NCBI GenBank assembly: GCA_014871385.1
Contig: CM026428.1
Coordinates: 9,964,772-10,028,771, forward strand
Reading direction: 5' to 3'
Source: Ceratodon purpureus
Taxonomy: Eukaryota; Streptophyta; Bryopsida; Pseudoditrichales; Ditrichaceae
DNA length: 64,000 nucleotides
Shown: piece after piece, positions 25,256 to 54,464 of the stretch
How the letters are laid out: each line of letters opens with the position of its first letter
Numbering within the stretch: position 1 is the stretch's first letter
Notes under the pieces: generated by a model
Database searches by the model: none
What the model was told of the DNA's origin: nothing
Seen by the model: the letters and a program-made list of their open reading frames with translations, nothing else
Made by a program: the position numbers and the translations under genes

Positions 25256-25263
25256 CACGTGTT
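25256..25263. other. Left target-site duplication of the giant hAT
   Basis: CACGTGTT, identical to 37714-37721. Eight base pairs is the hallmark duplication length of hAT elements. Confidence 0.88.
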
Positions 25264-25325
25264 CAGGGTTGTTCATGGGACAAAAGGACCTGTCCGTCCG
25301 TCCGGTCCGCTCGTCCGTCCGTTAG
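25264..25325. repeat. Left terminal and subterminal repeat of the giant hAT
   Basis: Begins CAGGGTTGTTCATGGGACAA, followed by clustered GTCCGTCC motifs, candidate transposase-binding sites. Confidence 0.8.
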
Positions 25326-25491
25326 GGGTCAGGGGAGGTCCGTTTGACCAGGACTTACGGTTGACCACCCAAATGGTGAAATGGGAGTTACCTTGGCCAC
25401 CTAGGATGCCACGCGTCCGACATGTCACCAAATATTGTTGACTTGGGGGATGACGTGGCTAAGAGGAAGGGCGCCAACGCCTTGAGTGAGG

Positions 25492-25830
25492 GTGGCGCGA
25501 GCACGTGAGAGGGGGGGCGCGAGCGTCTTGGGAAGGGGGGCGCGAGCGAGGGGGCGCGAGCGACTGGGAGGGGCGCGGGCGCCTGCGAGGGGGGGGGGCG
25601 CGAGCGCCTTTGATGGTGGGGGGGCGCGAGCGCCTGCGATTGCAGGGGGGCGCGAGCAAGGGGTTTGGGGTGGGGGCGCGAGCGCCTGCGAAGGGGGGGC
25701 GCGAGCGCCTGCGAAGGGGGGGCGCGAGCGTCTGCGAAGGGGGGGCGCGAGCGCCTGCGAAGGGGGGGCGCTAGCGCCTGCGAAGGGGGGGCGCGAGCGC
25801 CTGCGAAGGGGGGGGGGGCGAGCTGGGAAC
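25492..25830 (+). repeat. GC-rich minisatellite array 1
   Basis: Units of about 23 bp with core GGGGGGGCGCGAGC and spacer GCCTGCGAA. The distal units (about 25672-25815) are nearly identical, the proximal ones irregular. The G-rich strand is plus. It lies between the left terminus and the 3' end of the transposase gene. All-frame open frames across it are artefacts of composition. Confidence 0.9.
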
Positions 25831-26110
25831 AAGAATCAACCACTGAAGGAAATTAAGACACTACTGAATTTTTCATAGTGACATAAATGAGAGAAGTTTC
25901 AATTCATGTCGAAACAAAATTACATTCAATAGCCTTAGCTAATGTTTTATGGACATTGACTAAGGTTAACATATAAGTATCTACGTATAAAATTTAGATA
26001 TATATATATATATATATTATATTTTTTTGTGTTTTTTTAAAATTATTTTGGAGACATATATATTATACTTTCTCTATATAACTTCTATATGTAATATGCT
26101 AATAGATGTA

Positions 26111-29100
26111 TCACTTTCTTTTGTTTTTTTTGGCGGTGCGCCGCTCTGGATTCCTTCGAGTACCGGGCTTACCCAATGGTACTCTTACAACAATGTCTTC
26201 ATCATCAGGTGCTTCTTCACGGCTATCTTCTGATGAGTAATATCCTTCTGAGGATTTCGACCCCTCGTCATCTCCATCTCCCCCCTGATTAGGCTGATTA
26301 GGCACATACTCCTCCACCGTGGAATGAATGTTGCGAATTTCGTGGTCAACTGTACCATCCACCACTGTGGTCACAATTCTTTTGATCTTCCGTCTTTTGG
26401 TCTTATCGGTGATTCCGTCCACATTCATTACGGGTAATCTACGTTTACCCAGAGCCACAGGTACAGACGGGGTAGTTCCAACAGTATATCCTGAAAAAAA
26501 AGGGCGAACGTTTGTTGGACCTTTCCGTGACCGTATCACTCCATGACGCGTCGTAGAAGGTCCAGCTGGTAGACTTTGTCCAGAAGAAGTGAGTGGAATG
26601 CTTGTATTCGGAGTTGGAGTTAATGAACCATGCCCAGTAGAAGTGTTTGAACGAGGTGGAGGGGGTCGACCCAACCCTGCAAGTACTGCTCCGATTGAAG
26701 GTGTACTCTGGGGCAGGGGTGTTTGAAACAATCGGCCAATAGGAATTTCATCTTCTTCTCCATTTCTGACTGTCTCGGATTGTTCATTTCTTGGAGGGCT
26801 TTCATCCAAACCTCCAGACCTGATTGTTTCCTCAACATTTACTGGCAGAGTGGCCTGGAGTTGTTCAACTTCTTCTCCTCCCTCAACGTCTTCTGGAATT
26901 GGAATTTGCTCTCCCATGTTGTTACCCCCTTCTTCATTGTCATTGTTCGAAACGCTACGAACGGGGTAAATGTCATCATTATTGCCACCATCGTCGCTTT
27001 GATGCTGAGTCATTTCGACTTCAAATTCATCGTCAATATCATCGTCTGCCCGATCGTATGCGACCTCGCCTCTAGCTTGTATTTCATTGACAACGTGGTG
27101 AGGCGAAGTAGCTGCCTCTTCATCAAATCCTGCCCAGTCAAAAACTCCATTCGGCTGGTTAACGGGTTCAGTGCGTGGCATGTCACCATCAACATTGTCC
27201 ACGGGTAACTCTGGATACTCATCATCCATAGTAGCAGGAGTGTAATGAACTCCACCGTCATCACCATCGCCTTCATTAACTTCAAGTCCGTCGTGGAATC
27301 CTTCATCTCCATCATCATCACATACGTCTTCATCGTACATGGCTGGCACTTCTTCATCCGAGTCTTCGGAGAACGGTTGGTTCTCGTACCAAAGAACAGG
27401 ATCCGCTCCACGTCGTTCTCGAAGGAGCTTACTGTTCGTGTAAATGTACACCAAGTCTTCTGCCTTCTTCACGGCCAATCGGTTGCGAACCTTACTGTGA
27501 ACAAAGGAATACATGCTCCAATTTCGCTCACATGATGATGCCGAGCATGTTAACGAAAGGATGCGCTTTGCTATCAACGGTAACGCATCGCCCCCAACCC
27601 GCTGCCACCATTGATGAGGTAGCATCTTAGTCTGTCGAATGTTTGGGGCCTCCAAAGGGCTGAATGGACCGGTGCGTTCCTCAAACTGTGTTAGCTCGAA
27701 CAACACAGTATCGTGGTCCAGTTTAAGGCACTCACTCAAATGAATTAGCACTTGCAGGAGTGCACGCTTCGCAGCACTGTTAGTCAATAGCTCGTGGCTC
27801 TCCGGGAAAATGTAGGGATTCAAAATGGCGCCTGCGTAATGGAGATCTGTCAACATCATCTTCCATCTCTTCGTAAAATGTTTCTCAAAGCGATCTGCTA
27901 TAGCGGGGTCTAGGAAAAAAGGATCACCCCGTAGACGGAACACATGCTTCTTCAAATTATTCATGGCCAACCATGCCCTCCCCATTGCCGGTGTTTGTCC
28001 ATCAAATGTCTTCAAGGTCACAACAGCCGGCTTCATAACATGCACAAGATTCTCACAACGTAACCAAAATGTCTCATCGAGAATGGTACTCCGTACTTGA
28101 CATGCTAAGGTGTGAGCTCGATAACCGTTTGACCGATTGAATAAAGTACCCACATATTCATCCCACTTCGGACTGGCTACCACCTGGATTAGTGCCTCCC
28201 TCAGTTCAAGCAATCGAACAATCATCAAGTACGAGCATCCAAATCTTGTCTCCGCTGGTAACAACAGAGACAACTTCGGGCTGAATTGGCGAAACAAAGC
28301 CATGGTGACATGACGGCGACGTATAAAATTTGGTATGCGTTTTGCCAAGGCAATCAGCTCTTTGAAGGTTGCTTCCTTCCCCCAATCTTCTAGTAAGAGG
28401 TCCATGATGTGAGCTGCACAACCTTGCTTGTAAATGTGAGGATAAGCTTCAACCACCTGGTCCATGGCTCCCAACATCGCACTAGCATTGTCAGAGCAAA
28501 TCTGTACCACATTCTGCGGTCCAACTTCTTTGATGTACTCTTTCAATTTCCCAGCTATGTATGCCTTTGATTTCTTGTACCCCGTTGTATCAATGGAACC
28601 CAGGAATATATCTCCTGCTGGACACACAAGCATGACATTCATCAACGGCCGATGAACAACGTTGTCCCATCCATCCGAGCAAATAGTTGCCCCGTACAAG
28701 CTAATACACTGCTTCGTTTTCTCCTCTATTCTCAACTTGAGAAGCTGCTTTGTTGGCTGGATGTGCTTGGTTCGCATTGCGTTGTATGCTGGTGGACGGT
28801 ACACAAAACCCGCTTTCGATGTTGCCTCCACAGCAGCGATAAAAGATGGATGTCTAACCACATTGAAAGGCACATTCGCTTCATAAAAATAGGACGCCCA
28901 TTTCTCATCCAATTCATTGCGCATCCCAATCTGATAGGCCTCGGTAAAACTTTGTTGCCGCATAGATCTTGGTGTACATGAATCGCCTCTGCTTATAGGC
29001 GGAGTTGACTGAGACGGTTGAACTTGGGAAATCCTCTCCTCTTGGACCTCCTCCGTTCTCTGAGGCACTTCCGTAGATTGCTCAGCAGGCATAGACTGGC

Positions 29101-29404
29101 TAGAACATGGTGCCAAGTGTGCCAAGTGTGCCTCGCCATCACCACCATCAGTGCCGTATATCTCCGCATGTGTCATTCTTTTTGGTATTACATTACCACA
29201 ATTGGCAAAACGCCTAAATACGGCGGCGGGGGCCTTCGTACAATGACTCTTGCTTGAACCTTCACCCCATCCATAGTGCTTGAAAGCTCTTTGTCGTTTA
29301 TAACGAAAGGTGAAATTGCACCACACACATTTCACATGGTCCTTATCAATGAAAGTCCACCACGGAGCCCACTCAGCCGTCGACTGACGCTGTTGACCTG
29401 CCAT
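26111..29404 (-). CDS. hAT-superfamily transposase (BED finger, DUF659, hAT C-terminal) with long C-terminal extension
   Basis: 1097 aa in one exon, ATG at 29404 (AGAATGGCAGG); the frame extends 14 codons further only with a TTG. An N-terminal BED-like zinc finger (CVWC..H..C, about residues 24-56) is followed by a DUF659 region (NVPFNVVRHPSFIAAVEATS). The RNase H-like core has Asp-244 (TICSDGWD), Asp-305 (QICSDNASAM), the CxxH-type segment GCAAHIMDLLLEDW and Glu-626 (SASSCERNWS) in the dimerisation domain (about 594-666). All catalytic positions look intact. Unusually, about 430 residues follow: acidic stretches (EDSDEEVPAMYDEDVCDDDG), Pro/Ser-rich segments, a KTKRRKIKR nuclear-localisation-like motif and a basic end (RRTAKKNKRK). 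It probably cuts and pastes the enclosing element. Confidence 0.9.
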   Translation of the reverse strand: MAGQQRQSTAEWAPWWTFIDKDHVKCVWCNFTFRYKRQRAFKHYGWGEGSSKSHCTKAPAAVFRRFANCGNVIPKRMTHAEIYGTDGGDGEAHLAHLAPCSSQSMPAEQSTEVPQRTEEVQEERISQVQPSQSTPPISRGDSCTPRSMRQQSFTEAYQIGMRNELDEKWASYFYEANVPFNVVRHPSFIAAVEATSKAGFVYRPPAYNAMRTKHIQPTKQLLKLRIEEKTKQCISLYGATICSDGWDNVVHRPLMNVMLVCPAGDIFLGSIDTTGYKKSKAYIAGKLKEYIKEVGPQNVVQICSDNASAMLGAMDQVVEAYPHIYKQGCAAHIMDLLLEDWGKEATFKELIALAKRIPNFIRRRHVTMALFRQFSPKLSLLLPAETRFGCSYLMIVRLLELREALIQVVASPKWDEYVGTLFNRSNGYRAHTLACQVRSTILDETFWLRCENLVHVMKPAVVTLKTFDGQTPAMGRAWLAMNNLKKHVFRLRGDPFFLDPAIADRFEKHFTKRWKMMLTDLHYAGAILNPYIFPESHELLTNSAAKRALLQVLIHLSECLKLDHDTVLFELTQFEERTGPFSPLEAPNIRQTKMLPHQWWQRVGGDALPLIAKRILSLTCSASSCERNWSMYSFVHSKVRNRLAVKKAEDLVYIYTNSKLLRERRGADPVLWYENQPFSEDSDEEVPAMYDEDVCDDDGDEGFHDGLEVNEGDGDDGGVHYTPATMDDEYPELPVDNVDGDMPRTEPVNQPNGVFDWAGFDEEAATSPHHVVNEIQARGEVAYDRADDDIDDEFEVEMTQHQSDDGGNNDDIYPVRSVSNNDNEEGGNNMGEQIPIPEDVEGGEEVEQLQATLPVNVEETIRSGGLDESPPRNEQSETVRNGEEDEIPIGRLFQTPLPQSTPSIGAVLAGLGRPPPPRSNTSTGHGSLTPTPNTSIPLTSSGQSLPAGPSTTRHGVIRSRKGPTNVRPFFSGYTVGTTPSVPVALGKRRLPVMNVDGITDKTKRRKIKRIVTTVVDGTVDHEIRNIHSTVEEYVPNQPNQGGDGDDEGSKSSEGYYSSEDSREEAPDDEDIVVRVPLGKPGTRRNPERRTAKKNKRK

Positions 29405-29602
29405 TCTCCGTGTCTCTGAAAAAGTACAATGATCTCCTCTCTGCAACTGTTAGTATGACACATGTGAGAAAAAAATGGTATGTGTAGACATCAACCACAG
29501 GCCAATGTGATGCACATAGTCTCAAGCAAGGAGCCCACAAGGAGTTCCGGGACTAGAGGCCATGATTTCAAATGATATTGGGCTTGGGCTAAGTTGGTGG
29601 CA

Positions 29603-29608
29603 TTTATA
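29603..29608 (-). promoter_or_regulatory. Candidate TATA box of the hAT transposase gene
   Basis: TATAAA on the minus strand, directly next to array 2 and about 200 bp upstream of the transposase ATG. Confidence 0.5.
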
Positions 29609-29616
29609 CTTGTGGA

Positions 29617-30045
29617 GGGGGGCGCGAGTTTCTCCAGGCGGGGGGGCGCGAGCGTGTGCAGGGGGCGCGAGCTTCTCCAGAGGGGGGGGGCGCGAGCTTC
29701 TCTTTACAGGGGGGGGGCGCGAGCTTTTCCAGGGGGGGGCGCGAGCTTTTCCAGGGGGGGCGCGAGCTTCTCCAGGGGGCGCGAGCTTCTCCAACAGGGG
29801 GGGCGCAAGCTTCTCCGAGGGGGGGGGGCGCGAGCTTCTCCAGGGGGGGGGGGGCGCGAGCTTCTCCAAGGGGGGGGGGGGCGCGAGCTTCTCCAAGGGG
29901 GGGCGCGAGCTTTTTCAAGGGGGGGGCGCAACCTACTGCAAAGGGGGCGCGAGCTTCTCAGAGGGGGGGCGCGACCTTCTGGAAGGGGGGGGCGCGAGCT
30001 TCCAGAGGGGGGGGCGCGAGCGGGTTCAGGGGGGAGGCACCCTTG
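29617..30045 (+). repeat. GC-rich minisatellite array 2
   Basis: About 20 units of 18-23 bp with core GGGGGGGCGCGAGC and spacer TTCTCCA. The last unit carries the spacer GGGTTCA typical of arrays 4 and 5. The G-rich strand is plus. It lies between the kinase 3' end and the transposase promoter. Confidence 0.9.
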
Positions 30046-30253
30046 TACGAGGGGCAGTCCCGGTGAATGGGCCATACAGTTTTTTCATTTTTTTTTAAAA
30101 AACAATTTTTCATTCCATTACAAAACCAACAATACCATTTCATGTTCCACCAAGGCATGTATACGCCGAAAAAACGATTTATTAAAATATTCGAAATGTG
30201 CAAACAAGGCCACATAGGCAATCAAAATGTTCCAAACGTAATTCACTATGGAA

Positions 30254-31834
30254 CTACAATGTGTATCTAAAACAACCATTGGGAGCTTGGAAGTTGTAAG
30301 GGGGGCTCATCAAATCATTCACAACTTTTGCAAGTGAAAGCCTCTTTGTAGGATCTTCGTTAAGCAAGCCATCCAACTTTGATGAGAATACAATCTTTGA
30401 GATTGAATCCTTGAAGAGTTCCGGGCAATCTTCTTCTCTCCATATTGTCTTTGCCAAATGGCCTACCGAAAATGCATCAGATAGCGTCGTACATGGATGC
30501 ATCCTCTTCATGCGCTCCAAATTCCGTTCCTCATCATCTTTTTTGCCATATAAAAAGAACAACTCCGGTGCAACTCCTACCCTCCTCTTCTTTACTTGTA
30601 CAAGTTCATCGGGGTCCATCACACCATAAGGGGAGGCCTTGTTCTCAATGACTCTGCTTGCCACACCCCAATCGCACACACCAATATATACTTTATTCTT
30701 GTCATGAGGTGGAAAGTGGAGTAGAATGTTGGATGGCGTTAAGTCGTTGTGGAGGATTTCAGCCTTATGGACTATGTCCATAACGTAGATGAGACTCCAC
30801 GCCAACATTCCCCGGTTCTTTCGGTAGGCAACAATTCTTTGGCACTCTTCCATGGGCATATCCCTCGACTTCAAAATTTCTTTGTAATCTGTTGCCTCGG
30901 ATGCCTTCTCATTTATCTTGAGGAAGTTGCGGAGGCAATCTCCATTCCACCACAGGGTATAAGCTTCCATGGTCTTAGCGTGAATGGCCCAAAATTTTAT
31001 CACACCCGGATGCTCTACGGGGTTAACCGTGGCCTCAATCGCCCGTTCCTCTCGCTTCTTCACTTCGGTTTTAGCCTTGGAAAGTTTTCCCGCAAATTCT
31101 ATGTGAATTGGAATTTTCTTCATATTGGCTATTCGCACTTTTCGCACTTTGCCATACCCCCCCTCGGCATTGAAGCCAGATAATGGCACAACCTTGGCCG
31201 TAACCGGAATCCATATCAATGCACCATACATGTGTGCTTCCAATGCTGAGTTCAATGCTTGCTCATTCCAAGGCATAGTCTTTGTTTTCCCCTTAGAACA
31301 TCTCTGACATGCCTCCTGAACCGTTGTCAGTTTTTGAATAAAGACTTTGTCTTGGTTGCTCCATTCTTCGCCTTGTGGTTTCTTGACATGTGATTCAAAC
31401 ACATGAATGACATTTGTCGTAGCACTACTCACTTGTTGTGTCAACCACTTCGGGCTGTGAAAATACTTCGTCATGCAATCCATGTACATCTCTGATCCTT
31501 CCAATGCGCTCCAAAATTCCCTTTCCAAATCACGTTGGAGGTTGTAGATACCATCCTCTCCGTGATCAAGGTACATTGCCTTCAACATTCGTATGGTACG
31601 GGCCTTGTAGTACTCGACGGCCACCTTCCTGATGAAATGCGTATACTCCAATGGTGGATAACCGTCATCCTTCTCATGCGCTGGAATACTCTTCTTCTTT
31701 TTACCCTTCGAGCTAGATGAAGGAGTAGAACCACTAGAACCATGAGGTGTTACGCAACTCATAGGGTCCACCGCATCTGGAGCATCCAAGTCCACATACA
31801 TAGGCCGCTTGCCGGAGCCTTGTCTAGAAGACAT
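30254..31834 (-). CDS. Atypical protein kinase-like cargo gene
   Basis: 526 aa in one exon, ATG at 31834. The N-terminal ~200 residues start with a Ser/Gly/Lys-rich low-complexity stretch and have no recognised domain. The kinase fold spans about 215-510: glycine loop FNAEGGYGKV (about 221-230), candidate ATP lysine in EFAGKLSK (Lys-250), catalytic loop LHNDLTPSNILL (HND at 362-364 in place of HRD, Asn-369 kept), metal-binding VCDWGVASR (DWG at 388-390 in place of DFG) and VAPELFF for the APE motif. Catalytic Asp, Asn and metal Asp are all present, so activity is plausible. Substrate unknown. It is flanked by arrays 2 and 3 inside the giant hAT. Whether it acts in transposition, in host signalling or against host silencing cannot be told from sequence. 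Confidence 0.8.
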   Translation of the reverse strand: MSSRQGSGKRPMYVDLDAPDAVDPMSCVTPHGSSGSTPSSSSKGKKKKSIPAHEKDDGYPPLEYTHFIRKVAVEYYKARTIRMLKAMYLDHGEDGIYNLQRDLEREFWSALEGSEMYMDCMTKYFHSPKWLTQQVSSATTNVIHVFESHVKKPQGEEWSNQDKVFIQKLTTVQEACQRCSKGKTKTMPWNEQALNSALEAHMYGALIWIPVTAKVVPLSGFNAEGGYGKVRKVRIANMKKIPIHIEFAGKLSKAKTEVKKREERAIEATVNPVEHPGVIKFWAIHAKTMEAYTLWWNGDCLRNFLKINEKASEATDYKEILKSRDMPMEECQRIVAYRKNRGMLAWSLIYVMDIVHKAEILHNDLTPSNILLHFPPHDKNKVYIGVCDWGVASRVIENKASPYGVMDPDELVQVKKRRVGVAPELFFLYGKKDDEERNLERMKRMHPCTTLSDAFSVGHLAKTIWREEDCPELFKDSISKIVFSSKLDGLLNEDPTKRLSLAKVVNDLMSPPYNFQAPNGCFRYTL

Positions 31835-31990
31835 GGCAAAGTAAATCCCTGAAAAAAAAATTCAACAACTTCCCCCCCCGCCCCAATGAAGACTTCCCAC
31901 ATAAGCAGTTCCAAGCAAGGCGTGTTTTCACACGTCAGGACAAGGAGCCGCAGTGGGAAGGAGTGAGGGGGGCGAGAGCTTCTCCCCACC

Positions 31991-31997
31991 TTATATA
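31991..31997 (-). promoter_or_regulatory. Candidate TATA box of the kinase gene
   Basis: CTATATAAGG on the minus strand, next to array 3 and 157 bp upstream of the kinase ATG. Confidence 0.6.
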
Positions 31998-32007
31998 GTC
32001 CCCACGG

Positions 32008-32208
32008 ACCCGCTCGCGCCCCCCCCCTGAACCCGCTCGCGCCCCCCTGTACCCGCTCGCGCCCCCCCTATACCCGCTCGCGCCCCCCCCGTACCCGCTC
32101 GCGCCCCCCCACCCGCTCGCGCCCCCCCCCTGAACCCGCTCGCGCCCATACCCGTCCGCGCCCCCCCAACCCGTTCGCGCCCCCTCAGGCACGCTCGCGC
32201 CCCCCCCT
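32008..32208 (-). repeat. GC-rich minisatellite array 3
   Basis: About 10 units. On the minus strand the core is GGGGGGGCGCGAGCGGG with spacers ending TA, TTCA or absent. It lies immediately upstream of the kinase TATA box. Confidence 0.9.
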
Positions 32209-32364
32209 TCCATTTCTTTTCTCTCTCATTTTTTATTTTCTATTTCTCTTCTGGAAATAGTGAAATCTCTACACTACTTTCTAAGAGAAAAAAATGAAAT
32301 AAAACAAATTAAAAAATACAGAGTATTGGGATTTTATACTTGCACAACCTCTCATGCAGCTCTA

Positions 32365-33625
32365 GCCTCTCTTCCACTCCATGCTATTGATTTAATTGTA
32401 AAACGTCTATCTCCCAAACCAATTGCGTCGATCCCTTATTTATGATTATTTATAATATGTTAGAGCATTGTAGGATCCATATGTTCAATGCGTTATATTT
32501 TTTATTTTTTTAAACTCTAATCGAACTCTCTTCCACACCATGCTATTCTTTTTTATTTTAATCCCTTTATCTCTTCCACTCCATGCTATTGATTTAATTT
32601 TATTTTTTCCGTTTATATGCCAAACCAATTGCATCGAGCCCTTCTTTATGATTCTTTATATTTTTTATTATATGTTAGAGCATTGTAGGATCCATATGTT
32701 CAATGCATTATATTTTTTATTTTTGTAAACTCTAATCGAACTCTCTTCCACACCATGCTATTCTTTTTTATTTTAATCCCTTTATCTCTTCCACTCCATG
32801 CTATTGATTTAATTTTATTTTTTCCGTTTATATGCCAAACCAATTGCATCGAGCCCTTCTTTATGATTCTTTATATTTTTTATTATATGTTAGAGCATTG
32901 TAGGATCCATATGTTCAATGCATTATATTTTTTATTTTTGTAAACTCTAATCGAACTCTCTTCCACACCATGCTATTCTTTTTTATTTTAATCCCTTTAT
33001 CTCTTCCACTCCATGCTATTGATTTAATTTTATTTTTTCCGTTTATATGCCAAACCAATTGCATCGAGCCCTTCTTTATGATTCTTTATATTTTTTATTA
33101 TATGTTAGAGCATTGTAGGATCCATATGTTCAATGCATTATATTTTTTATTTTTGTAAACTCTAATCGAACTCTCTTCCACACCATGCTATTCTTTTTTA
33201 TTTTAATCCCTTTATCTCTTCCACTCCATGCTATTGATTTAATTTTATTCCGTTTATATGCCAAACCAATTGCATCGAGCCCTTCTTTATGATTCTTTAT
33301 ATTTTTAATTATATGTTAGAGCATTGTAGGATCCATATGTTCAATGCATTATATTTTTTATTTTTGTAAACTCTAATCGAATTCTCTTCCACACCATGCT
33401 ATTCTTTTTATTTTATTCCTTTTATCTCTTCCACTCCATGCTATTGATTTAATTTTATTCCGTTTATATGCCAAACCAATTGCATCGAGCCCTTCTTTAT
33501 GATTCTTTTTTTTTTATTATATGTTAGAGCATTGTAGGATCCATATGTTCAATGCATTATATTTTTTATTTTTGTAAACTCTAATCGAACTCTCTTCCAC
33601 ACCATGCTATTCTTTTTATTTTATT
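32365..33625 (+). repeat. AT-rich 215-bp tandem satellite
   Basis: Units bounded by AAACTCTAATCGAACTCTC recur at about 32512, 32727, 32942, 33157, 33368 and 33578. The first three periods are 215 bp and nearly identical; the last two are about 210 bp with small deletions. A diverged partial unit precedes them (about 32365-32510). Each copy holds the same 62-codon open frame (32540, 32755 and 32970), a consequence of repetition and not a gene. It separates the kinase half from the RING half of the giant hAT. Confidence 0.93.
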
Positions 33626-34002
33626 CTAATATTAATACACTAATTTTCTTGTAGTCAACTTTATATTATTCATGGTGCATTAGATCAGTATTCCGTTATG
33701 GGATATTTCAGTTTCTAACCACCATGACATTTATTCATCTTGATAACTTCTTTCATCCCATGTTATTCATCCCTTTTTATCCCGAGTCCCTTATTATAGT
33801 CATGATTGTTTTTCTATAATTTGATTTCTCATCCCCAAATTATTGAAATCAGTATTCCTTATTTTCATATCCCATTTTAATTTTTAATTTTTAATTTTAT
33901 TTTAGAGAGAAATGGTGAAAAAATCCATTGCATTTGTTTTTATTATTGTCTTCCAACCTTCTTCAATGGTACTCCTAAGGAAATGAGAGTTTGTTTTATG
34001 GG
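33626..34002. other. AT-rich spacer inside the giant hAT
   Basis: No gene or repeat recognised between the 215-bp satellite and array 4. Confidence 0.4.
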
Positions 34003-34300
34003 GGGACCCGCTCGCGCCCCCCCCCCCTGAACCCGCTCGCGCCCCCCCCCCTGAACCCGCTCGCGCCCCCCCCATACCCGCTTGCGCACCTCCCCTGAAC
34101 CCGCTCGCGCCCCCCCCCAATACCCGCTCGCGCCCCCCCATACCCGCTCGCGCCCCCTGCCTCGCTCGCGCCCCCCCCCCCCCCGAGACCCGCTCGCGCC
34201 CCCCCCCCAAACCCGCGCGCGCCCCCCCTTAATCCCGCTCGCGCCCCCCCTCAGCCGCTCGCGCCCCCCCGACCCCGCTCGCGCCCCCCCCCCCCCCCCG
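34003..34300 (-). repeat. GC-rich minisatellite array 4
   Basis: About 13 irregular units. On the minus strand the core is GGGGGGGCGCGAGCGGG, with spacers such as TTCA and TA. The plus strand is C-rich toward the downstream gene. It ends directly at a TATA box. Confidence 0.9.
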
Positions 34301-34302
34301 AC

Positions 34303-34309
34303 TATATAA
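34303..34309 (+). promoter_or_regulatory. Candidate TATA box of the RING gene
   Basis: ACTATATAAG immediately downstream of array 4 and 337 bp before the RING ATG. Confidence 0.6.
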
Positions 34310-34361
34310 GTGAAGGGGGCGCCCTCCCCCCCCCCACTTTTTTTAGCTCCACCTTGGCACT

Positions 34362-34545
34362 CAGGCCTTGAACTACCTCATGGTGGCTTATTGCTGAGTA
34401 CTTGGGTGGGGTCTACAGTATTTTGACAACGCCACGTACCAGCTTTCAGCCTTATTTTGTACGCTCATCCGGGAATTCGGGCCCTAAACTACCTCATGGT
34501 GGCTTATTGCTGAATACTTGGGTGGGCCACAAAGTATAGTTACAA
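34362..34545 (+). repeat. Duplicated leader segment with identical short uORFs
   Basis: A ~60-bp segment (AACTACCTCATGGTGGCTTA and on) occurs twice, about 116 bp apart, between the TATA box and the RING ATG. Each copy contains the same five-codon uORF, MVAYC-stop, at 34380-34397 and 34496-34513. If transcribed unspliced, both would precede the main start. Confidence 0.65.
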
Positions 34546-34645
34546 TACCATAATCAACCACGGAGGAAAATTTTAAAATCAATTGGGGGAAGTTTTGAGG
34601 AGTTGGTGTGTTTTTTAACACACAAAACTTTACCAGTACACCACG

Positions 34646-37024
34646 ATGGAGGGAAACCCAGATCCGGCGGAGGAAAGGCCACTCACCAAGGCCGAGAAGA
34701 AGAAAATCAGAGATCGTGAACGGAAGCGTGGTGGCAAGAAGATGAAGAAGCGGCTCCATGTGCTGAACAACCCCACAAAGTTGGCATTTAGAGGTTGGCA
34801 AGATGAGCCGGAACCGTGGAAATATTCCACATGCGAGGAATTCATTGAGTGGTGCCACATCACAAAAATATTTCCACATGATCGGCACAGAAAACACAGG
34901 ATCTCAGACAAGGCTAACCTCTATTATTGCTTGAATGCGGAGTTTGTTGAACGTTCTATACAAGTTTACCAGCATCTATACAAGCAACGATGTGTTGAAC
35001 GCAATGAAGTACCATTGTTCATTTGCAGAATGGTGTATGCTGAGGTGGTGCTTCACAAAGTGGTGGATTGGTCCACCATCAAATCCACGCCGAGTGTTAG
35101 GGCGCCGACAGAGCGTGACATTCCCAAACAAAGGAAATACGCAGATGGTGGCCTGGGGAAAAAAATGAAGGAAAAAACACAAGTGCGGGAGCCTGATACA
35201 GCAGAGTCTGAACCAGATTCTGATTCCGATGGTCGTCGTGGAGAACGTCCACCACGTAGAATTGCAGCATCAGCAAATATGGCTGTAGAGCCTCCAATGA
35301 ACCATCCAGCGGACGTCATAGAACCTCATGACGATGCGAACAACATCTTCGTGGAAAACGATCCAAATACGGCAGCTAATTTGGACGTGGTCGGAACTGA
35401 ACCTACGATGGTTCTTGGCATGCCGGTTCTAGTTAGAAATGACCAGTCTAACCAGACCGAGGAGGTCGGGGAGTTACAATTACAGCTAATAGAAAAGGAT
35501 GGCTTCATTGCAGAGTTACAAGAGACCATCCGAAAACTACGATTGGAATCAGCAGCAAAAGATGCAGTAATATCAGATTTGCGCAATCAATTGCAAGAAC
35601 GAGAAAGACCTCAGTCTTCTCAAGCCAATGAAATACCTGTAGTTCAAGATCCAATGTTGGTGGATGAATCTTACATCAACAACACGGTTGATGTTGCAAC
35701 GGCCGGTGTGTTGGAGAATATTTCCACTCCAGCAAAACGACGACGAGTTGGAGTGATATTGCCTCCACCAGCCCCATACCCGCGAGCCTATGTGGACATC
35801 GATGGACCATTAAGTCAAGATTCCTTGTCATTTCCACCTGATGCTCTAACGGGAGAAGTGGAGACATTGAAGAGAGCCAATAATGATTTGCGGCTCCTTG
35901 TTTCTAAGTTTGCTAAAGCATACTACGAGTGGAAAGTAGCAACCATTCTCAGCGTTGATCACGGGCGCCAAATTGCATTAGAGTTCAAGAAGATCGACGA
36001 ATCGTACTTGCAACACAACAAACGAAGGAATTTTGGCCTCACTTCATGGACTAACGCAGATGATATGTATCCAGATACCATGGCAAAGCAAGAATCGAAT
36101 CCTGAACTCATAGATTGGGCCAAGTTGAATTTCGATATAAACGCAACTTCGTGCCATGATCTTCAAATGAAGGAAGGAGTTAATAGCAGAAAGCTTTGGC
36201 CAAATCCTCAACCGTGGGTGATGGATGGTTCAAAAGTATGCCCTGTGTGTATAAATCCATTTGGTCCTGAGGGTGGATGGGCAGTTGGATCATGTACCCA
36301 CATGTTCCATCCTATGTGTTTAATTAACATTTTTTTGGTAAGGAGATTTTGCCCGGTGTGCAAATCCCCGTTCCATGAACGCTTGTACGAGGTTTTTGGA
36401 CTCACTCCATACATGCCACCAAGCCATGAGAAAAATCCCGAAAACACACCAGGTGAACAGTACCGCAACATGTGGGGGGAAGACTTGATTTGGAGTTGGC
36501 GGGCCCAGACTCACTCGGTCTTCAAGAGCAATGTAAGTGACGAGTTGGGATGGGAGGATGACCCCAATCAAATTGTGAGGGTGGCAAAGAAGATAATTGG
36601 ATCAAAGAAGGAGGACCAAGGAAAACGAAATTTCTTCTATCAGACTTTGAATGGATACTGGGATCCGAAGCATAGGAAGTTCCAACTTGGTAATCACCCA
36701 AAAGGCCTCATATGGAACAAGGACGGGGAATTGGTTACAGACCTCGAAGGTCAATTCATGTCTTTGACCGCCCGTGATGCAGTCCAAATGTCTCTTTCGG
36801 AGTGGAAGTTAATTTTCAAACATGAGGCTGTTGACTTTCTTCTGGAGGAACACTCTCCACAGACATTGCGTACATTGAGAGAATTGAGGAACTCGCAAAT
36901 TTTGCGTTCTCTCAGTGAAAGTGATGGCCCATTCCGGCGAACACGGACGAGAGCCAGGCGCAGCTTGACGCTGGACGATGGAGCGGGACCAAGTGGCACA
37001 GCGGGAGTAGATGCAGATGAATAG
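34646..37024 (+). CDS. RING-H2 finger cargo protein
   Basis: 792 aa in one exon, ATG at 34646 (ccacgATGGAG). The N-terminal basic cluster (KAEKKKIRDRERKRGGKKMK) looks like a nuclear-localisation signal. A globular region of unknown type follows (STCEEFIEWCHITKIFPHDR, about 61-145), then an acidic segment, a coiled coil at about 273-320 (GELQLQLIEKDGFIAELQET) and a second basic motif, PAKRRRV. The RING-H2 finger spans 532-572: CPVC, x14, C-x-H-x2-H-x2-C, x10, CPVC, with all eight zinc ligands present. RING-H2 proteins are usually E3 ubiquitin ligases; the target is unknown. The C-terminal ~200 residues have no recognised domain. It lies between arrays 4 and 5 within the giant hAT and is read away from the other two genes. 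Confidence 0.85.
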   Translation: MEGNPDPAEERPLTKAEKKKIRDRERKRGGKKMKKRLHVLNNPTKLAFRGWQDEPEPWKYSTCEEFIEWCHITKIFPHDRHRKHRISDKANLYYCLNAEFVERSIQVYQHLYKQRCVERNEVPLFICRMVYAEVVLHKVVDWSTIKSTPSVRAPTERDIPKQRKYADGGLGKKMKEKTQVREPDTAESEPDSDSDGRRGERPPRRIAASANMAVEPPMNHPADVIEPHDDANNIFVENDPNTAANLDVVGTEPTMVLGMPVLVRNDQSNQTEEVGELQLQLIEKDGFIAELQETIRKLRLESAAKDAVISDLRNQLQERERPQSSQANEIPVVQDPMLVDESYINNTVDVATAGVLENISTPAKRRRVGVILPPPAPYPRAYVDIDGPLSQDSLSFPPDALTGEVETLKRANNDLRLLVSKFAKAYYEWKVATILSVDHGRQIALEFKKIDESYLQHNKRRNFGLTSWTNADDMYPDTMAKQESNPELIDWAKLNFDINATSCHDLQMKEGVNSRKLWPNPQPWVMDGSKVCPVCINPFGPEGGWAVGSCTHMFHPMCLINIFLVRRFCPVCKSPFHERLYEVFGLTPYMPPSHEKNPENTPGEQYRNMWGEDLIWSWRAQTHSVFKSNVSDELGWEDDPNQIVRVAKKIIGSKKEDQGKRNFFYQTLNGYWDPKHRKFQLGNHPKGLIWNKDGELVTDLEGQFMSLTARDAVQMSLSEWKLIFKHEAVDFLLEEHSPQTLRTLRELRNSQILRSLSESDGPFRRTRTRARRSLTLDDGAGPSGTAGVDADE

Positions 37025-37275
37025 GAATAGTTACAACTTAGTACTAAGTGACTAGTTTTCATATACTACAGTTTTTGTAATGTTTTGGTTTGAATTGGTA
37101 ATGAAATGCTTTTACTTTCATAAATGTATACAACTTTGCAAAGTCCATGTATTTTGGCTCACGAGTATCTCATTTTTTCTATGCTGAATTTACACTTTTG
37201 TCATTGCGCTTAGCCCCAATATATTATTCTGATGAAAATGTTAGGTTTTTTTGCATTGTCAAAAATTTACTATCT

Positions 37276-37487
37276 ACCTGAACCCCCCTGAACCCGCTCG
37301 CGCCCCCCCCCCCTGAACCCGCTCGCGCCCCCCCTGAACCCGCTCGCGCCCCCCCTGAACCCGCTCGCGCCCCCCCCTGAACCCGCTCGCGCCCCCCCCC
37401 CCTGAACCCGCTCGCGCCCCCCCTGAACCCGCTCGCGCCCCCCCCTGAACCCGCTCGCGCCCCCCTGAACCCGCTCTCGCCCCCTAC
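37276..37487 (-). repeat. GC-rich minisatellite array 5
   Basis: About 9 very regular units of 20-25 bp. On the minus strand: GGGGGGGCGCGAGCGGGTTCA. It lies between the RING gene 3' end and the right terminus, mirroring array 1 on the left. Confidence 0.92.
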
Positions 37488-37619
37488 ACATGCTGGCACC
37501 CCTTTTGCATATGTGGAATTCCCCGTCATCGTTCGTTGTCCATGTCATCAATATGTTTCCCCTATAGGTAAGTTGTAAAAAAAAAAAACTAACTTAGTAA
37601 TTTTCCTCCTCCCCTCAAT

Positions 37620-37713
37620 GTCCGAGTATGTCCGGGGACCGACCGGTCCGTCCGTCCGTCCGTCCGTCTATGTCCGGAAATTTTGCCCATGTCCGTCCGA
37701 ATAGACAACCCTG
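37620..37713. repeat. Right terminal and subterminal repeat of the giant hAT
   Basis: Ends ..AGACAACCCTG, the inverse of the left CAGGGTTGT. It contains several GTCCGTCC and CCGGTCC motifs and the inverse of CATGGGCAAAA. Confidence 0.8.
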
Positions 37714-37721
37714 CACGTGTT
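37714..37721. other. Right target-site duplication of the giant hAT
   Basis: CACGTGTT, identical to 25256-25263. Confidence 0.88.
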
Positions 37722-39314: not shown

Positions 39315-41841
39315 TCACCAGAAAAGGACAGGTTGGAGGCGCGAGATACTTACCTCCTCCGTGTGAAGGACCTCGGGAGACTGATTACAGAATGTAGAGG
39401 GAACTTCGACGGTAGGCGGACGAGGTTGTACATCAGCGAGGTTTGCATCTTCTCGTCGCCTCATGCTCGCAAGTTGTGCCTCCAGAGTTTTTATCAAAGT
39501 CGCACCATCCTCTGAGGTTCCTGAAGCACTCTAACGAATTTCCAAAATTTGTTTCTCAATGATTGCAGCTAAAGGATTGGGAACCGTACTATTATCTGTG
39601 TGAGGTTGATTCGAAGTACATGCTGGGACGTCATAGCATGCATTCTCTTGATCAACACCGGCTGTGGAGGAATTGTGCTCTCTAACTGATGAGGTTGGAT
39701 GTGCCTCTAAATTACCCCTGTACGGCTTGCCGCTGTCTCCAACTGCTGTATCTGAGGAAACCTGGTCTGGTCTGATTGAAGTTGTCTGCACAGGTAACTT
39801 CGCTTTTGTGGACGATCGTCCACTGTATCCCTTATCTCTGTTCATTTCATCTAAGATCTCATCTGGTGCGGGCGAACGTCCTAGCTTTTGGCGTAATCTC
39901 TCTCGGATTCCCACCTCGCCAAGAGGACCTGTCCTTCCTTTGGTGCGTCTGCATGAGTTTGCAAACCTCATCTGCTCTGATTTAACTTTGAACTTCTCTG
40001 ACCCCTCAAGTTTTACGAGTTTGTGCCATATTTCCTCGCTCACCTACTTCGGCCGCTCCTTCTCAGACTATATCATCTTAATTAATTCATGTCGGTAGGA
40101 TGATAGAGCATTACCAATGCGGGTGCGTAGCCATGCTGAATTGACATCTGCGCTGTACTTGAAATCCTCGTCCAATCTTTTGAATAAAATTTCCATCAGT
40201 TGGAATGGTTGCTGCCAAATGTCGATGTAGGAAGGGTCTAGACTACGCACACACTTTGCAATAGCGTCATTCCAAGTAGTGACCCCATGGCCATATGGCC
40301 TACCTTCTGCACTTATGTGAACATAGTGAGGTTTCCGACCTGATGATTCACGTACTGCTGCTGTATCATCTCGTAGCATCTCTTTGTCTTGACGCTCCCT
40401 CCTCAGTGCACTCTCCTTTTTTAACGTGAATCCGGAGAGCAGCCTGGGAGTCCTTTTCCTAGCGGAGTCATCATCTCCACGAACTGAATAGCTGCGTCCT
40501 TCCTTCTTCACTGATGGAATACCAGGGGTTGAAGCTGGTGTCATGTAGTGACTCACTCCAGATCGCGTAGCTGGGGGAGTGCCCGGAGTCCCCGACTCAC
40601 GGATGTCTACATTGAATGCTCCATCTTCATGCGGGTGTTGAAGTATGCGTCGGCTGCGACGATCTCGTTCTTCTTCTTGTCACGGATGTACACAACACGA
40701 CCGTGAGGGGGACTAGTGCGGTGATGCGGCCGGATTCTGTCTGCAGGTGAACGCCGATAGTGACGACGTCGCCGATCTGGTGACGAAGATGAACGGGAGT
40801 ATCTACGCTCTCGACGTCTATAATGGGAGCGACCTCTCGTCTGTTATTCCAAGACATATAGTGCAATTGACACGATGTATAATGGAGCAAATGTATCAGA
40901 TTAGTCCATAGTGAAAAAAACGTGTTGACATTGAATCATACTGAGAGATGCATATAATTGAGACAACAGGATACGGATATGTAACGCCAACACTGAACAT
41001 CCTTAAATTCAGCATTCGGTGAATCATCTTACCTCTTTGTATTCGTCAGAGTAGGAGGAGAACGACGATTCTGATCGATGTCGCCTCCTCTTCCTCCTTG
41101 ATTTTCGTCTTCGACCCCCGTTGTCTTCGTCTGAAGTCAATAACATGTGAATGTCATTGACATTTTTACAGTTCGATTTCTTAGTGGTGTCATGATTCGG
41201 TGATGATGTTAGCGGGATTCTTCCGTCCTCCGTGTCCAATGCCACCTTCTCTGGGATTTTCGCATTCAATGCAGGACACACATCTTCACTTCCGGCAACA
41301 TCGTAGCCATCCAGAATATCATCAGGATTGGTGGATGGATCTACGACATATTTCGGGGGAATCATGTTAGAGGAGATTTTCATATTATAAATATTTATGT
41401 CACCGGGTTAGCTGCGTTTCAATTAAAATGTCAATAGATTTCGGTGTATAACTATCTCATATGGGCAAAGAAACGGACTCACAGACTGAATAGTTATGGT
41501 GCGAGCTGCCTAACCTATATGGTGACCTTGATCAGGATACCGAAGAATTTTACAAGAACGAAATCCCATACAATGCTTAAACAGTGTTGGTAAGCTATAC
41601 CAGAAAAAAGAAACGATGCCTCACCTGCGAGATGAGGATGACCGGCGTTGCTGGAAGGTTGATTTCGAGAGTGATCAGGTGTATTGAGTCGTGATGTTCT
41701 CTTTTCCGACATAAGCATATGCTCCCTCAGGACCTCAGCGCATGGGTCCGGGCCTGGAGGTAATTTCTTGGGAACTTTGCCCTGTCCTGATCCTGACGAA
41801 GTCGCAGATTTGCCTTTACCATGCGAGTTCAACCTCCCCAA
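39315..41841 (-). pseudogene. Decayed En/Spm (Ptta)-type transposase-associated protein
   Basis: Minus-strand fragments suggest a multi-exon gene: an N-terminal exon near 41841-41610, an acidic/Arg-rich exon at 41383-41036 (GRRRKSRRKRRRHRSESSFS), an Arg/Ser-rich segment at about 40850-40680, then a long frame from about 40680 to 39350. That frame contains YIDIWQQPFQLMEILFKRLD, EEIWHKLVKLEGSEKFKVKS and GIRERLRQKLGRSPAPDEIL, arranged like the plant Ptta/En/Spm transposase domain (WxxL..SEKF..KS..N..R then G..P.P.EI). It is interrupted by three in-frame TAG codons, at 40070-40068, 40046-40044 and 39533-39531, without a frameshift between them. A probable coiled coil lies near the end (IEKQILEIR..IKTLEAQLASM). 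Family assignment is from memory of the domain pattern. Confidence 0.5.
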
Positions 41842-43016: not shown

Positions 43017-43796
43017 GTGAATCCTTAATGCAAACGAAAAAAGAGCCCTCTAAAACTAAATCTATCTTTGGAGTGGCTAAAAATTAGTAATCAAAATTAC
43101 CATCATTAAAAGTGCATTCAAGTAAAGGTGAGATATTTTTTAAGAAAAAAGAATTGTGAAATTAGCACATAGGTGAAATGTTCGATTGAAAATACCACAC
43201 TTTCAAAATTTAAAGAGAGTGCACCAAATTCCCTCTATATTTCTAGAATTCCTTGTATATTTCTAGAATTCCTTGTATATTTCTAGAATTCCCTCTGGAT
43301 TTCTAGAATTCCCTTTGGATTTCTAGAATTTCCTCTGGATTTCTAGAATTCCCTCTGGATTTCTAGAATTCCCTTTGGATTTTTAGAATTCCCTTTGGAT
43401 TTCTAGAATTCCCTCTATATTTCTAGATTTCCCTCTATATTTCTATATTTTCCCTCTATATTTCTATGTTTTCCCTCTATATTTCTAGATTTCCCTCTAT
43501 ATTTCTAGATTTCCCTCTATATTAGATTTCTTTATATATTTAAATTTAGAGGGAGTGTAAGAGAATATTTATATTTTATGCAAAATTTGGTGCACTCCCT
43601 CTATAATTTGAAAACATGGTGTTTTCAATGAGAGATGTCACCAATGTCACCAAGGTCCTAATTTTACTATTTTTTTTTGTTGAGAAATATCTCACGTTTC
43701 TTTACATACGCTTCTAATTTTAATTTTAATTTTAAGGCAGTCCAAAGATAACTTTTCATATAGAGGGCTATTTTGCCGTGTGCATTAAGGATGCCC
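43017..43796. mobile_element. Tourist/PIF-like MITE with long inverted repeats
   Basis: 780 bp flanked by TAA at 43014-43016 and 43797-43799, the 3-bp duplication typical of PIF/Harbinger-related MITEs. The left end GTGAATCCTTAATGC and the right end (inverse GGGCATCCTTAATGC) match. The inverted repeats continue imperfectly for more than 200 bp: AGCCCTCTA, ATCTTTGGA, GTGAGATATTT, TTGAAAA(T/C)ACCA and GAGTGCACCAAATT occur in order on both arms. The centre is an AT-rich minisatellite. No coding sequence, so non-autonomous. Confidence 0.78.
43232..43535 (+). repeat. ~20-bp AT-rich minisatellite inside the MITE
   Basis: About 15 copies of a unit like TTTCTAGAATTCCCTCTGGA with variants TATA for TGGA and GATTT for GAATT. 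It forms the loop region of the MITE. Confidence 0.9.
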
Positions 43797-45580: not shown

Positions 45581-47230
45581 CTAACACTTGCTATATTTTT
45601 CATATGCACTATTGTTGGTAATCCAATGATTCACCAACTTCATCTTTGGTTTAGATACCGGTTTATCACTCTGAATCAACCGCATATCTTCCTGCACAGT
45701 GGGCCACATAGGGAAGAAACAAGCCTGCATGTACACACATAAAGCAAACTGACCCCGTGGGCCATTTGTACGTGTTGCATGTTGCACTAAACTCGCTTTC
45801 AAAAGTATCACATCCCCAGCCTTGGGTATGAAATACTTTTGAAGCTCAGGTAGATGGAAATGCACTCCTTTTCCATCTACTACACTACCTGTGCCAAAGT
45901 ACACCCACAATGCACAATGTGTAAGTCTATGTACAACAGACTATTAAATATTTATGAATTGATGAAATTAATGAAGCACAACAGAATATAAGAGATGATA
46001 TTAGCGTACCATCTCCAAGCCAAACAAAGAAAGAATATGAGAAATCATTGGCATCATTGTGGACGCTACAGTTGTAGTCTCTAGTAATAGAGACACCTGT
46101 GAAAGGGGAACCACCCATGCAGCCTTCCCCTTTGGCCACCCCTTCAACTTCCCTTATTTTGAATAGATGCTGAAAAATGGATTTGAAGCACCTCTCTAAC
46201 CCCGCATAGACAGCAGCCACCAACAATTCAGATCTTGTATAACATTTAGGATTGGGGTGTTTGTACCTGCGCAGCACACGCACCAAATAATTTGCTAAAC
46301 AAGAAACAACAGCGCCAAACTAAAGAAGAAAGTAGAAACCACAGCAAACTAGAAACCATAAAAGCACAGCAAAGTAGAAACCACATCAAAGTGCTTACCA
46401 TGAAATGGTACCGTATTTATAACGGATACCAAAGGAGACCATACGGCTCCCAGACTTGTGCATACCACGTCGAGTTGGTTTGGCATGCTTTTCAAGCCAA
46501 TGAGCTTCCTTAGAAATAAAATCCAACTCCAATGGTGTAAAAACACCATTGGTAAGGTAGACCAACTCACCAGTTGGGTCTACCAAGGATGCAGGAGCGA
46601 AAACCTCATCATGGTGCGCCCCCATCACCTCAGGTACAAAAGCAGACCAAAATTTCTTGGTTTGGATGCTTTGTATAACATGGTGGATTGATGGTTTTAC
46701 ACCGTTGACCCAATATGCTTGGGACGGATTGGGTGGTTCCGAAATTAATGAAATTAGAAACACTGATTTTTTTAAAATGCAGAAAAAATCTTCAATTCTT
46801 GAAAGAGCTTTTTTCCACATTTTTCTTTACAGAACATGACATTCCAACAAAGTCATATCCATAGGCCACATACAAAAATTAAAATAAAATATTTCCAAAT
46901 AATCATAGACATCTTTAATTTTTTTTCTAAAAACACAATTTAAAAAATAATGAATTGATTTATATGTTACTTCTTGTAAACAATTTCAAGAATACAAAAC
47001 CAACATCCTCATGATTTACATGAAGTTGAACAAAATAATTCAATGTGATCCTCAATGTAATTAAGCACCAGTTTGCCATTTTCTCGAAGTTGAGTTTAGT
47101 GCCTTTCTTTGAAACCAATTCTTCCAATTCCTTTAAATAACTCACGAATTGGCGCTCTATGATTGGTGCAGGTAATGCACATATCAAATAGTTTGACACA
47201 TGCTCCAACTCTATTCCCGCAACCTTCTTT
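45581..47230 (-). CDS. 2-oxoglutarate/Fe(II) dioxygenase-like protein, partial model
   Basis: The 3' three exons are clear on the minus strand: about 46763-46399, 46266-46010 and 45888-45581, with matching phases (TTTCATG|gtaagc, gcgcag|GTACAA, GGAGATG|gtacgc, gcacag|GTAGTG). The joined product has a double-stranded beta-helix pattern: the iron motif HND in NCSVHNDANDFSYSFFVWLG, then VHFHLPELQKYFIPKAGDVI and LLKASLVQHATRTNGPRGQF, supplying a distal His and a 2-oxoglutarate-binding Arg. The spacing resembles the TET/JBP-like branch more than plant hormone oxygenases; that is tentative. A further upstream exon is likely at 47230-46960 (ELEHVSNYLICALPAPIIER) but its phase to the next was not resolved, and the start codon is unknown. 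Substrate unknown. Confidence 0.55.
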
Positions 47231-53492: not shown

Positions 53493-54464
53493 TTAAGATG
53501 TCTTTGCCATGATTTTCTTAAAGGAAGGGCGAGAGGAGATGTCTTCCCACCAAGCGTTCAAATGCGGGCGAGCGGCGAATATCGCGCCCTTCTTGCCAAT
53601 GTTCACGAGCAGGTGCGTGCCGGGCAAGTGACCGAGATCGGCGAGGCTGAAGAAGTCTCCGGCCAAGTACTTGTGATTCGTCAGCTGCACTTCATATATG
53701 TCCAGCACCTTCTCCAGTTTCGCCATCTCTGCCGCTACGATTTCCTCGTTCGTTGTCTTGCCCCAAGAAGGCGTCCAGACGACTTGCTCCACGATAGAAA
53801 TCAAAGGGCGATCGTAGTTCTGGGACTCCACCTCCACCCACTGGTTCACCAGCGCCTTCTCCTTCATGCTCTTCCCCAGTAGCGGCGTCCCCTGCCCGTC
53901 GAACTTCTCCGCTAAGTACCTGGTTATGGCGCGTGACTCTGTGCATCAATGGTAGAAAAACATGATCCGTTCAGAACAACACCAAACCTACCCAAAATTG
54001 CGCATCCAAGCCTCACCATGAGCAGAAATTGAATGTAATGGAAAGACATAGGCCATAGCCATGGCGAGCTTACCAAAAAGGGTCAATTCGCCATCCTGAA
54101 GCACAGGCACTTGTCCGAACGGCTGCAGTCAATGAGGCAAAAGGAATTGAATTAGAGAGGAAAGCTCCCTCCATAAACTGAACGCAACGTTTGTGAAACT
54201 ACCTAAAGGTCGGGTCTTATAGCACAACCATATCTATATGGACGACGTGAAGAATATTTTACTTGTTGAGTTCATACCAAGACAAGGAGGAAGTGCAGAG
54301 CAATCTGAACAAAGTACCTGCATCTTGAGAAACTCGGGAGTGCGATGCTCGCCCTGTTTTAAGTTCACTAGCTTCAGCTCATAGTCCACGCCCAGTTCCT
54401 CCAGCTCGATGAGCACTCGCAGCGTGTAGGGCGATAAGTAGGAACCGAGAACGATGATCCCCAT
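53493..54464 (-). CDS. Glutathione S-transferase, phi class (copy 1)
   Basis: Conjugates glutathione to electrophiles or reduces peroxides; cytosolic. Three exons on the minus strand: 54464-54318, 54122-54074 and 53938-53493, phases 0 and 1, giving 213 aa. The thioredoxin-fold half begins MGIIVLGSYLSPYTLRVLIE, with Ser-11 as the candidate catalytic serine. PFGQVPVLQDGELTLFG supplies the cis-Pro glutathione site and ESRAITRYLAEKF the gamma-glutamyl-binding Glu-Ser. The helical half has the phi signature EKALVNQWVEVESQNYD and KYLAGDFFSLADLGHLP. It is the most diverged of the three copies here. All key positions are present. Confidence 0.93.

Follow-up and report, generated by a model that had tools for sequence, protein, structure and literature searches.

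The DNA analysed here is a stretch of 64,000 nucleotides from Ceratodon purpureus (positions 9,964,772 to 10,028,771 of contig CM026428.1, assembly GCA_014871385.1), called the window below. It carries a hAT-type element located at positions 25264-37713 of the window, whose ends enclose a transposase gene, a protein kinase gene and a RING-H2 protein gene. The element is flanked by a perfect 8-bp target-site duplication (TSD), CACGTGTT, at 25256-25263 on the left and 37714-37721 on the right; the interval 25256-37721 given in a preliminary description of this DNA takes in both TSD copies. It is bounded by 9-bp perfect terminal inverted repeats (TIRs), CAGGGTTGT at 25264-25272 on the plus strand and its reverse complement ACAACCCTG at 37705-37713 on the minus strand, and 10 of the 12 terminal bases match. 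The preliminary description had proposed a 12,450-bp unit with inverted ends and a perfect duplication, and the length, the ends and CACGTGTT are exactly as it gave them. The sequence CAGGGTTGT occurs once on each strand across the window. Just inside the ends lie two clusters of GTCCG motifs, both on the plus strand, with 8 motifs on the left (25292-25419) and 10 on the right (37620-37699). Indeed, GTCCG/CGGAC is found 8 and 10 times in the left and right terminal 160 bp, against a maximum of 3 among 3160 other 160-bp windows.

The hAT transposase gene (26111-29404, minus strand) encodes 1097 amino acids (aa). Like those of the two other genes, its frame is open from ATG to stop, with 0 internal stops. 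It includes a DUF659 domain (aa 205-357; 7.5e-33, 113.8 bits for a Pfam cut-off of 34.7) and a dimerisation region (aa 585-657; Dimer_Tnp_hAT, 1.4e-6, 28.4 bits for a cut-off of 21.4), which bears out the earlier claim of an intact transposase. Among proteins of the PDB, the Hermes transposase is matched with an E-value (E) of 2.7e-4. The motifs CSDGW at 242, CSDNAS at 303 and CERNWS at 625 may hold the hAT catalytic triad. The N-terminus is rich in Cys and His (CVWC at 26), in a pattern that we take to resemble the BED finger of plant hAT transposases. Residues 701-900 are strongly acidic, with net charges of -27 and -19 per 100 residues.

The protein kinase gene (30254-31834, minus strand; 526 aa) displays the hallmarks of a eukaryotic-type protein kinase, namely a Pkinase domain above the Pfam cut-off (6.7e-11, 42.5 bits versus 31.7) together with the catalytic Lys, the HxD-type Asp and the DxG. 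The residues concerned are K250, HND (D364), DWG (D388) and APE at 422, which we assume to play their usual catalytic or activity-related roles. The protein is nevertheless divergent, as no solved kinase is matched at E 0.001 (best match, E 0.0019). An alpha-kinase, as in IS3EU transposons, was considered and ruled out since Pfam gives Pkinase.

The third gene (34646-37024, plus strand; 792 aa) encodes a protein with a basic N-terminus and all eight zinc ligands of a C3H2C3 RING-H2 domain (C532, C535, C550, H552, H555, C558, C569 and C572), which matches the RING of RNF24 with an E of 8.2e-7. The curated cut-off of Pfam zf-RING_2 is narrowly missed (26.2 bits versus 27.3). The product, whose ligase role is putative, is named here a RING-H2 protein. 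A weak coiled-coil-like match, below the cut-off, covers aa 276-330. Two copies of a sequence of about 45 bp (...AACTACCTCATGGTGGCTTATTGCTGA...) lie upstream of the frame, at 34366-34410 and 34484-34530, about 120 bp apart. The preliminary description had also announced two long intronless genes beside the transposase; the kinase and RING frames are indeed long and open, and the word intronless rests on these open frames. Comparisons of the three proteins with each other by blastp gave nothing significant that would indicate a shared domain (best E 0.28), and NCBIfam gave nothing exceeding a curated cut-off. AlphaFold2 models from single sequences had mean predicted local distance difference test values of 36.6 (RING) and 33.8 (kinase), too low for use.

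The TSD of 8 bp (CACGTGTT on either side), the short TIR (the 9-bp CAGGGTTGT) and the association of a DUF659-type core with a C-terminal dimerisation domain in the transposase are all features of the hAT superfamily, in which TIRs measure 5-27 bp (PMC12506042). By themselves, the termini are not overwhelming against chance: 60 Markov-1 sequences of the same length as the window, in which any perfect 9-bp TIR associated with a perfect 8-bp TSD, 0.5-20 kb apart, was counted, yielded 3 such structures (about 0.05 per window). It is the combination of the ends with their CAGGG start, the intact hAT transposase and the GTCCG/CGGAC clusters that leaves chance as no serious explanation. These data support the view that the unit is a large autonomous-looking hAT element with kinase and RING-H2 genes between its ends.

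The most telling feature of the element, overlooked in the preliminary description, is a set of five arrays built on the core GCGCGAGC. This core is found in 53 exact copies within the element (26 on one strand and 27 on the other) and has no exact copy in the remaining 51.5 kb of the window; GGGG precedes 51 of the 53. Five stretches of the element are reported as GC-rich arrays by Tandem Repeats Finder. Two of them lie between the genes and the element ends, A1 on the left (25489-25814; 15 units, 12 of them exact) and A5 on the right (37283-37484; 9 units, 8 exact). Each of the three others is upstream of one gene: A2 of the transposase gene (29617-30021; 17 units, 14 exact), A3 of the kinase gene (32000-32207; 9 units, 8 exact) and A4 of the RING gene (34006-34290; 13 units, 11 exact). 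These 63 units, mostly spaced by 18-28 bp, were picked in the array regions alone, on the G-rich strand alone and with at most one mismatch to GCGCGAGC. Across them, the G-run that precedes the core is well kept, whereas the unit tails differ chiefly from one array to another, being GCCTGCGAA-like in A1, TTCTCCA-like in A2 and of the GGGT type in A3-A5, as expected if the core plus the G-run is what is recognized. The G-rich strand is the plus strand in A1 and A2 (25489-30021) and the minus strand in A3-A5 (32000-37484), so that array orientation changes a single time, on either side of the kinase gene. The CpG observed/expected ratio is 1.15-1.32 in four of the five arrays, 0.76 in A2 and 0.67-0.76 elsewhere.

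At all three genes, the nearest core ends 13-18 bp before a TATAWAW box. The distance from the last array core is 13 bp for the TATAAAT box of the transposase gene (29602-29608, minus strand; this core is a one-mismatch copy), 14 bp for the TATATAA box of the kinase gene (31991-31997, minus strand) and 18 bp for the TATATAA box of the RING gene (34303-34309, plus strand), the last two boxes being included in a common sequence, GACTATATAAG. Counting both strands, 27 TATAWAW starts are present in the element, most of them in one AT run at about 25986-26075. The spacer between the divergent kinase and RING genes also contains an AT-rich satellite (32439-33623) with a 215-bp unit, 5.6 copies and 98% matches, for which no role is visible. 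When direct repeats were sought as 18-mers present in 2-5 copies and 0.3-20 kb apart, the top 12 distances mainly corresponded to this satellite and to the arrays.

As each gene has its own GCGCGAGC array before its TATA box, the kinase and RING genes look like genes of the element that are co-regulated with the transposase gene. Our favoured reading, whose chances we put at about even, is that of a 12.45-kb autonomous-looking hAT element in which the kinase and RING-H2 genes are resident, are expressed together with the transposase gene and in which a protein of the element reads the GCGCGAGC arrays. The preliminary description had viewed both proteins, by inference, as cargo that serves the element. 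The service itself gains indirect support from the element-specific array located upstream of the TATA box at each gene, while the targets that were suggested (host silencing or DNA-repair proteins, or the transposase) stay conjectural.

According to the mechanism that we propose, a DNA-binding protein encoded by the element, most likely the transposase, would bind the GCGCGAGC arrays. The transposase is the first candidate because the N-terminal domains of hAT proteins bind subterminal motifs, the zf-BED/Hermes-type domains tested usually including a CGG or CGC preference (PMC8097297), and because transcription could be activated by its acidic tail. Given its basic N-terminus, the RING protein may be a second candidate. 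Binding upstream of the TATA boxes would activate all three genes or keep them unsilenced, and binding of the arrays near the ends would contribute to the assembly of the transposition complex. The kinase and the RING protein, as a putative E3 ligase, would modify the transposase or host silencing factors. As a result, the element would stay active and host genes lacking arrays would be unaffected. The step with the least support is the part played by the kinase and the RING protein, which may either adjust the activity of the transposase or inactivate silencing factors of the host.

The element shares with the Ac/Tam3-type hAT elements of plants an 8-bp TSD, a short TIR, a transposase with a C-terminal dimerisation domain and clusters of subterminal motifs; the terminus of Ac is a short CAGGG-type TIR like that found here. 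It differs from them by its size (12.45 kb), its two additional genes and its GC-rich arrays, and its transposase departs from typical Ac/Tam3-type sizes with 1097 aa and a long acidic stretch. Binding to subterminal sequences is documented in the superfamily. The hAT element Herves shows binding to a short motif in its subterminal region (PMC3143072), and the motifs of four hAT proteins match subterminal regions of the hAT elements tested (PMC8097297). The CGGBP-type domains are hAT-derived fingers, which usually show a preference that includes CGG or CGC (PMC8097297). The examples described come, however, from vertebrates, insects and fungi (PMC8097297), whereas the binding considered here is predicted and the transposase has no zf-BED Pfam match.

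The closest parallel for the arrays is provided by VANDAL21/Hiun and its anti-silencing protein VANC, which belong to the Mutator-like elements (MULEs) of Arabidopsis (PMC5735166, PMC10398659). This is also a multi-gene DNA transposon that carries dense arrays of element-specific short motifs in its non-coding parts, some of them upstream of genes. VANC21 binds these dense tandem arrays, including those upstream of VANA21 (PMC5735166), and removes DNA methylation at the bound VANDAL21 regions (PMC5735166, PMC10398659). Within the window, the element described here likewise has dense element-specific arrays in non-coding regions (53 exact cores inside, 0 outside; five arrays). It is, however, a hAT and not a MULE, its motif is GCGCGAGC and not YAGTATTAY, it encodes a kinase and a RING protein instead, and its arrays are found in two orientations. 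VANDAL elements are characterized by a Mutator-type transposase together with VANC; here the transposase is a hAT transposase, and Pfam lists no MULE domain in any of the three proteins. We file the element as a hAT rather than as VANDAL-type in view of this transposase and because no VANC sequence entered the comparison; it may work like a VANDAL but is not one. A more ambitious version of the favoured reading is that the element carries its own anti-silencing system, every gene and both ends being tagged by arrays, a protein of the element binding these tags, and the kinase and the RING E3 ligase removing or disabling silencing proteins of the host solely where the DNA is tagged. Such a system would be the counterpart of VANDAL/VANC among plant hAT elements, of independent evolutionary origin and based on phosphorylation and ubiquitin; we regard it as unlikely.

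Accessory genes are already established in DNA transposons, including TET/JBP genes in hAT7 and an alpha-kinase gene in TET+ IS3EU (PMC12730594). The TET/JBP hAT7 elements of rust fungi resemble the element in carrying, beside a hAT transposase gene, an accessory gene proposed to counter silencing, but they are fungal, have a 7-bp TSD and encode a TET/JBP dioxygenase, and no Pkinase-type kinase or RING protein is described for them in the passages considered (PMC12730594). In the element from C. purpureus, the TSD measures 8 bp and none of the three proteins gives a Tet_JBP match. The TET+ IS3EU elements of the same fungi also encode a kinase besides the transposase, but they belong to the IS3EU superfamily and their alpha-kinase gene is opposite to that of the transposase (PMC12730594), whereas here the kinase is of the Pkinase type and in the same orientation as the transposase, the RING gene being opposite. 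ToxhAT/ToxTA is a DNA transposon of about 14 kb with extra genes that was formerly called a hAT, but its TA duplication and 74-bp TIRs led its authors to move it to Tc1/Mariner, and it is likely non-autonomous (PMC12506042). A published hAT with both a kinase and a RING gene was absent from the matches listed, which came from the open-access literature, with Repbase outside the scope; this is not proof of absence. Promoter arrays in hAT elements were only narrowly covered by this literature comparison.

Several observations weigh against the favoured reading. The element is known from a single copy, and neither a second copy nor a related protein was found elsewhere in the window. The BED-like DNA-binding finger of the transposase is deduced from residue spacing, and Pfam listed no zf-BED model at E up to 10, HMMER filters dropping most matches above about 0.1. 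As the 63 units were selected for their closeness to the core, its constancy among them is in part a product of the selection, and more divergent units lie between them. In favour of the reading, array edges placed at random in the same gaps had a TATAWAW box within 20 bp downstream in 20 of 788, 60 of 2750 and 20 of 2750 placements, but this test was framed after the arrangement had been seen. The arrays are not uniformly oriented relative to the genes, their G-rich strand being sense at the kinase gene but antisense at the transposase and RING genes; furthermore, VANC21 motifs are arrayed in one orientation (PMC5735166), unlike those of the element. Codon usage at full length gives correlations of 0.80-0.90 within the element versus 0.24-0.67 with host pieces, but at equal sample size the former become 0.54-0.59, while those with the seven host pieces average 0.40 and do not exceed 0.53; one of these pieces (AdSS) also fits the codon model of the element better. 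Codon usage therefore sets the three genes somewhat apart from the host pieces, weakly, and it was dropped as proof of long residence, though retained as weak support, since the gap shrinks at equal sample size and one host piece fits.

Passenger capture would account for the single known copy: an ordinary hAT would have picked up the kinase and RING genes as host genes or retrocopies, with no function for the element, as in Pack-type elements. Plant transposons do take up host sequence (PMC13317346), as Pack-MULEs do (PMC6446971), and retrocopies would be devoid of introns, like these frames. Pack-type elements are, however, characterized by gene fragments and by the loss of the transposase, whereas the transposase frame of the element is long and includes both hAT domains, and the kinase and RING frames are long and open. 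In addition, both accessory genes have kept their catalytic residues or zinc ligands, each has, like the transposase gene, a separate element-specific array followed by a TATA box, and the distance of the kinase from any solved kinase is not what a recently copied, conserved kinase of the host would show. We consider capture rather unlikely. Still another possibility is that a second mobile element is nested within the hAT, the kinase and RING genes belonging to this insertion. The two directions of transcription and the arrays around the kinase-RING block would fit such a composite, but arrays of the same type are also found beyond this block, close to the two ends of the hAT and before the transposase gene, and no related protein is encoded by the rest of the window. 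Moreover, a scan for 8-bp TSDs with CA...TG ends only (other TSD lengths and end types being left out) found five pairs in the window, none of them wholly inside the element except the element itself. Nesting is thus highly improbable.

A different objection concerns the arrays themselves, which could be ordinary minisatellites grown by slippage or recombination that mark the joints of added blocks, their proximity to TATA boxes being a coincidence and nothing being bound. This explanation fits either reading of the kinase and RING genes, so that the probabilities given here do not sum to one. An array is indeed present in every gene-gene and gene-end stretch (two repeat tracts sharing the kinase-RING spacer, A3 and A4), as expected of assembly joints, and the 215-bp AT satellite shows that the element also holds a repeat without visible role. 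Repeats of G-runs are prone to slippage, and 21 of the 31 G-quadruplex-like stretches of the window fall in the arrays. On the other hand, one core recurs in five arrays whose unit tails differ, no exact GCGCGAGC is found in the 51.5 kb outside the element, and a TATA box lies beside the array at three genes out of three. We grant the minisatellite explanation a modest probability, similar to that of passenger capture.

Should further copies of the unit exist in the host genome, it would represent a hAT with two accessory genes of the signalling type and a visible cis code, i.e. one motif found near both ends and before all three genes. In the literature considered, sequence-specific anti-silencing by a plant DNA transposon has been worked out for VANDAL MULEs only. 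Another case of unrelated origin, relying on a kinase and an E3 ligase, would, if true, indicate repeated evolution of such systems, and the arrays make the anti-silencing idea directly testable by binding and methylation assays. Relatives were sought in viral and prokaryotic collections, whose negative results are of little weight for plants, and with single-protein scans, which detect only close relatives. Scans of IMG/VR with the whole kinase, RING protein and transposase and with pieces of them found no relative, nor did a scan of prokaryote genomes with the kinase only, and the exact 22-base array pattern had 0 matches in IMG/VR.

The other genes of the window fit a eukaryote and look plant-like. 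They include genes for adenylosuccinate synthetase, 6-phosphogluconate dehydrogenase and tubulin, three GST pieces and a plastocyanin-like domain; Rfam and tRNA scans of the window gave no match. The GST gene pieces (53493-53945 and 57221-57868 on the minus strand, 62824-63297 on the plus strand) form a local cluster within 10 kb, in two orientations. A multi-exon gene resembling those of TET/JBP dioxygenases, with an HND motif, is located on the minus strand at 45702-46319, perhaps from 46826. Its exon pieces give an E of 0.0015 for one and 0.12 for the next alone; spliced together at a presumed junction, they give 2.8e-7 and 30.4 bits, where the Pfam cut-off is 34.9 and is thus not reached. 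To our knowledge, such a gene is not usual in plant-like genomes. A fragment resembling the Ptta/En/Spm plant transposase (Transposase_24; 39531-40043, minus strand), with an E of 0.00081 that is below the cut-off, lies at a distance of about 2 kb from the inserted hAT. Finally, a 20-bp tandem repeat, AATTCCCTCTATATTTCTAG, extends over 14.8 copies at 43227-43523.

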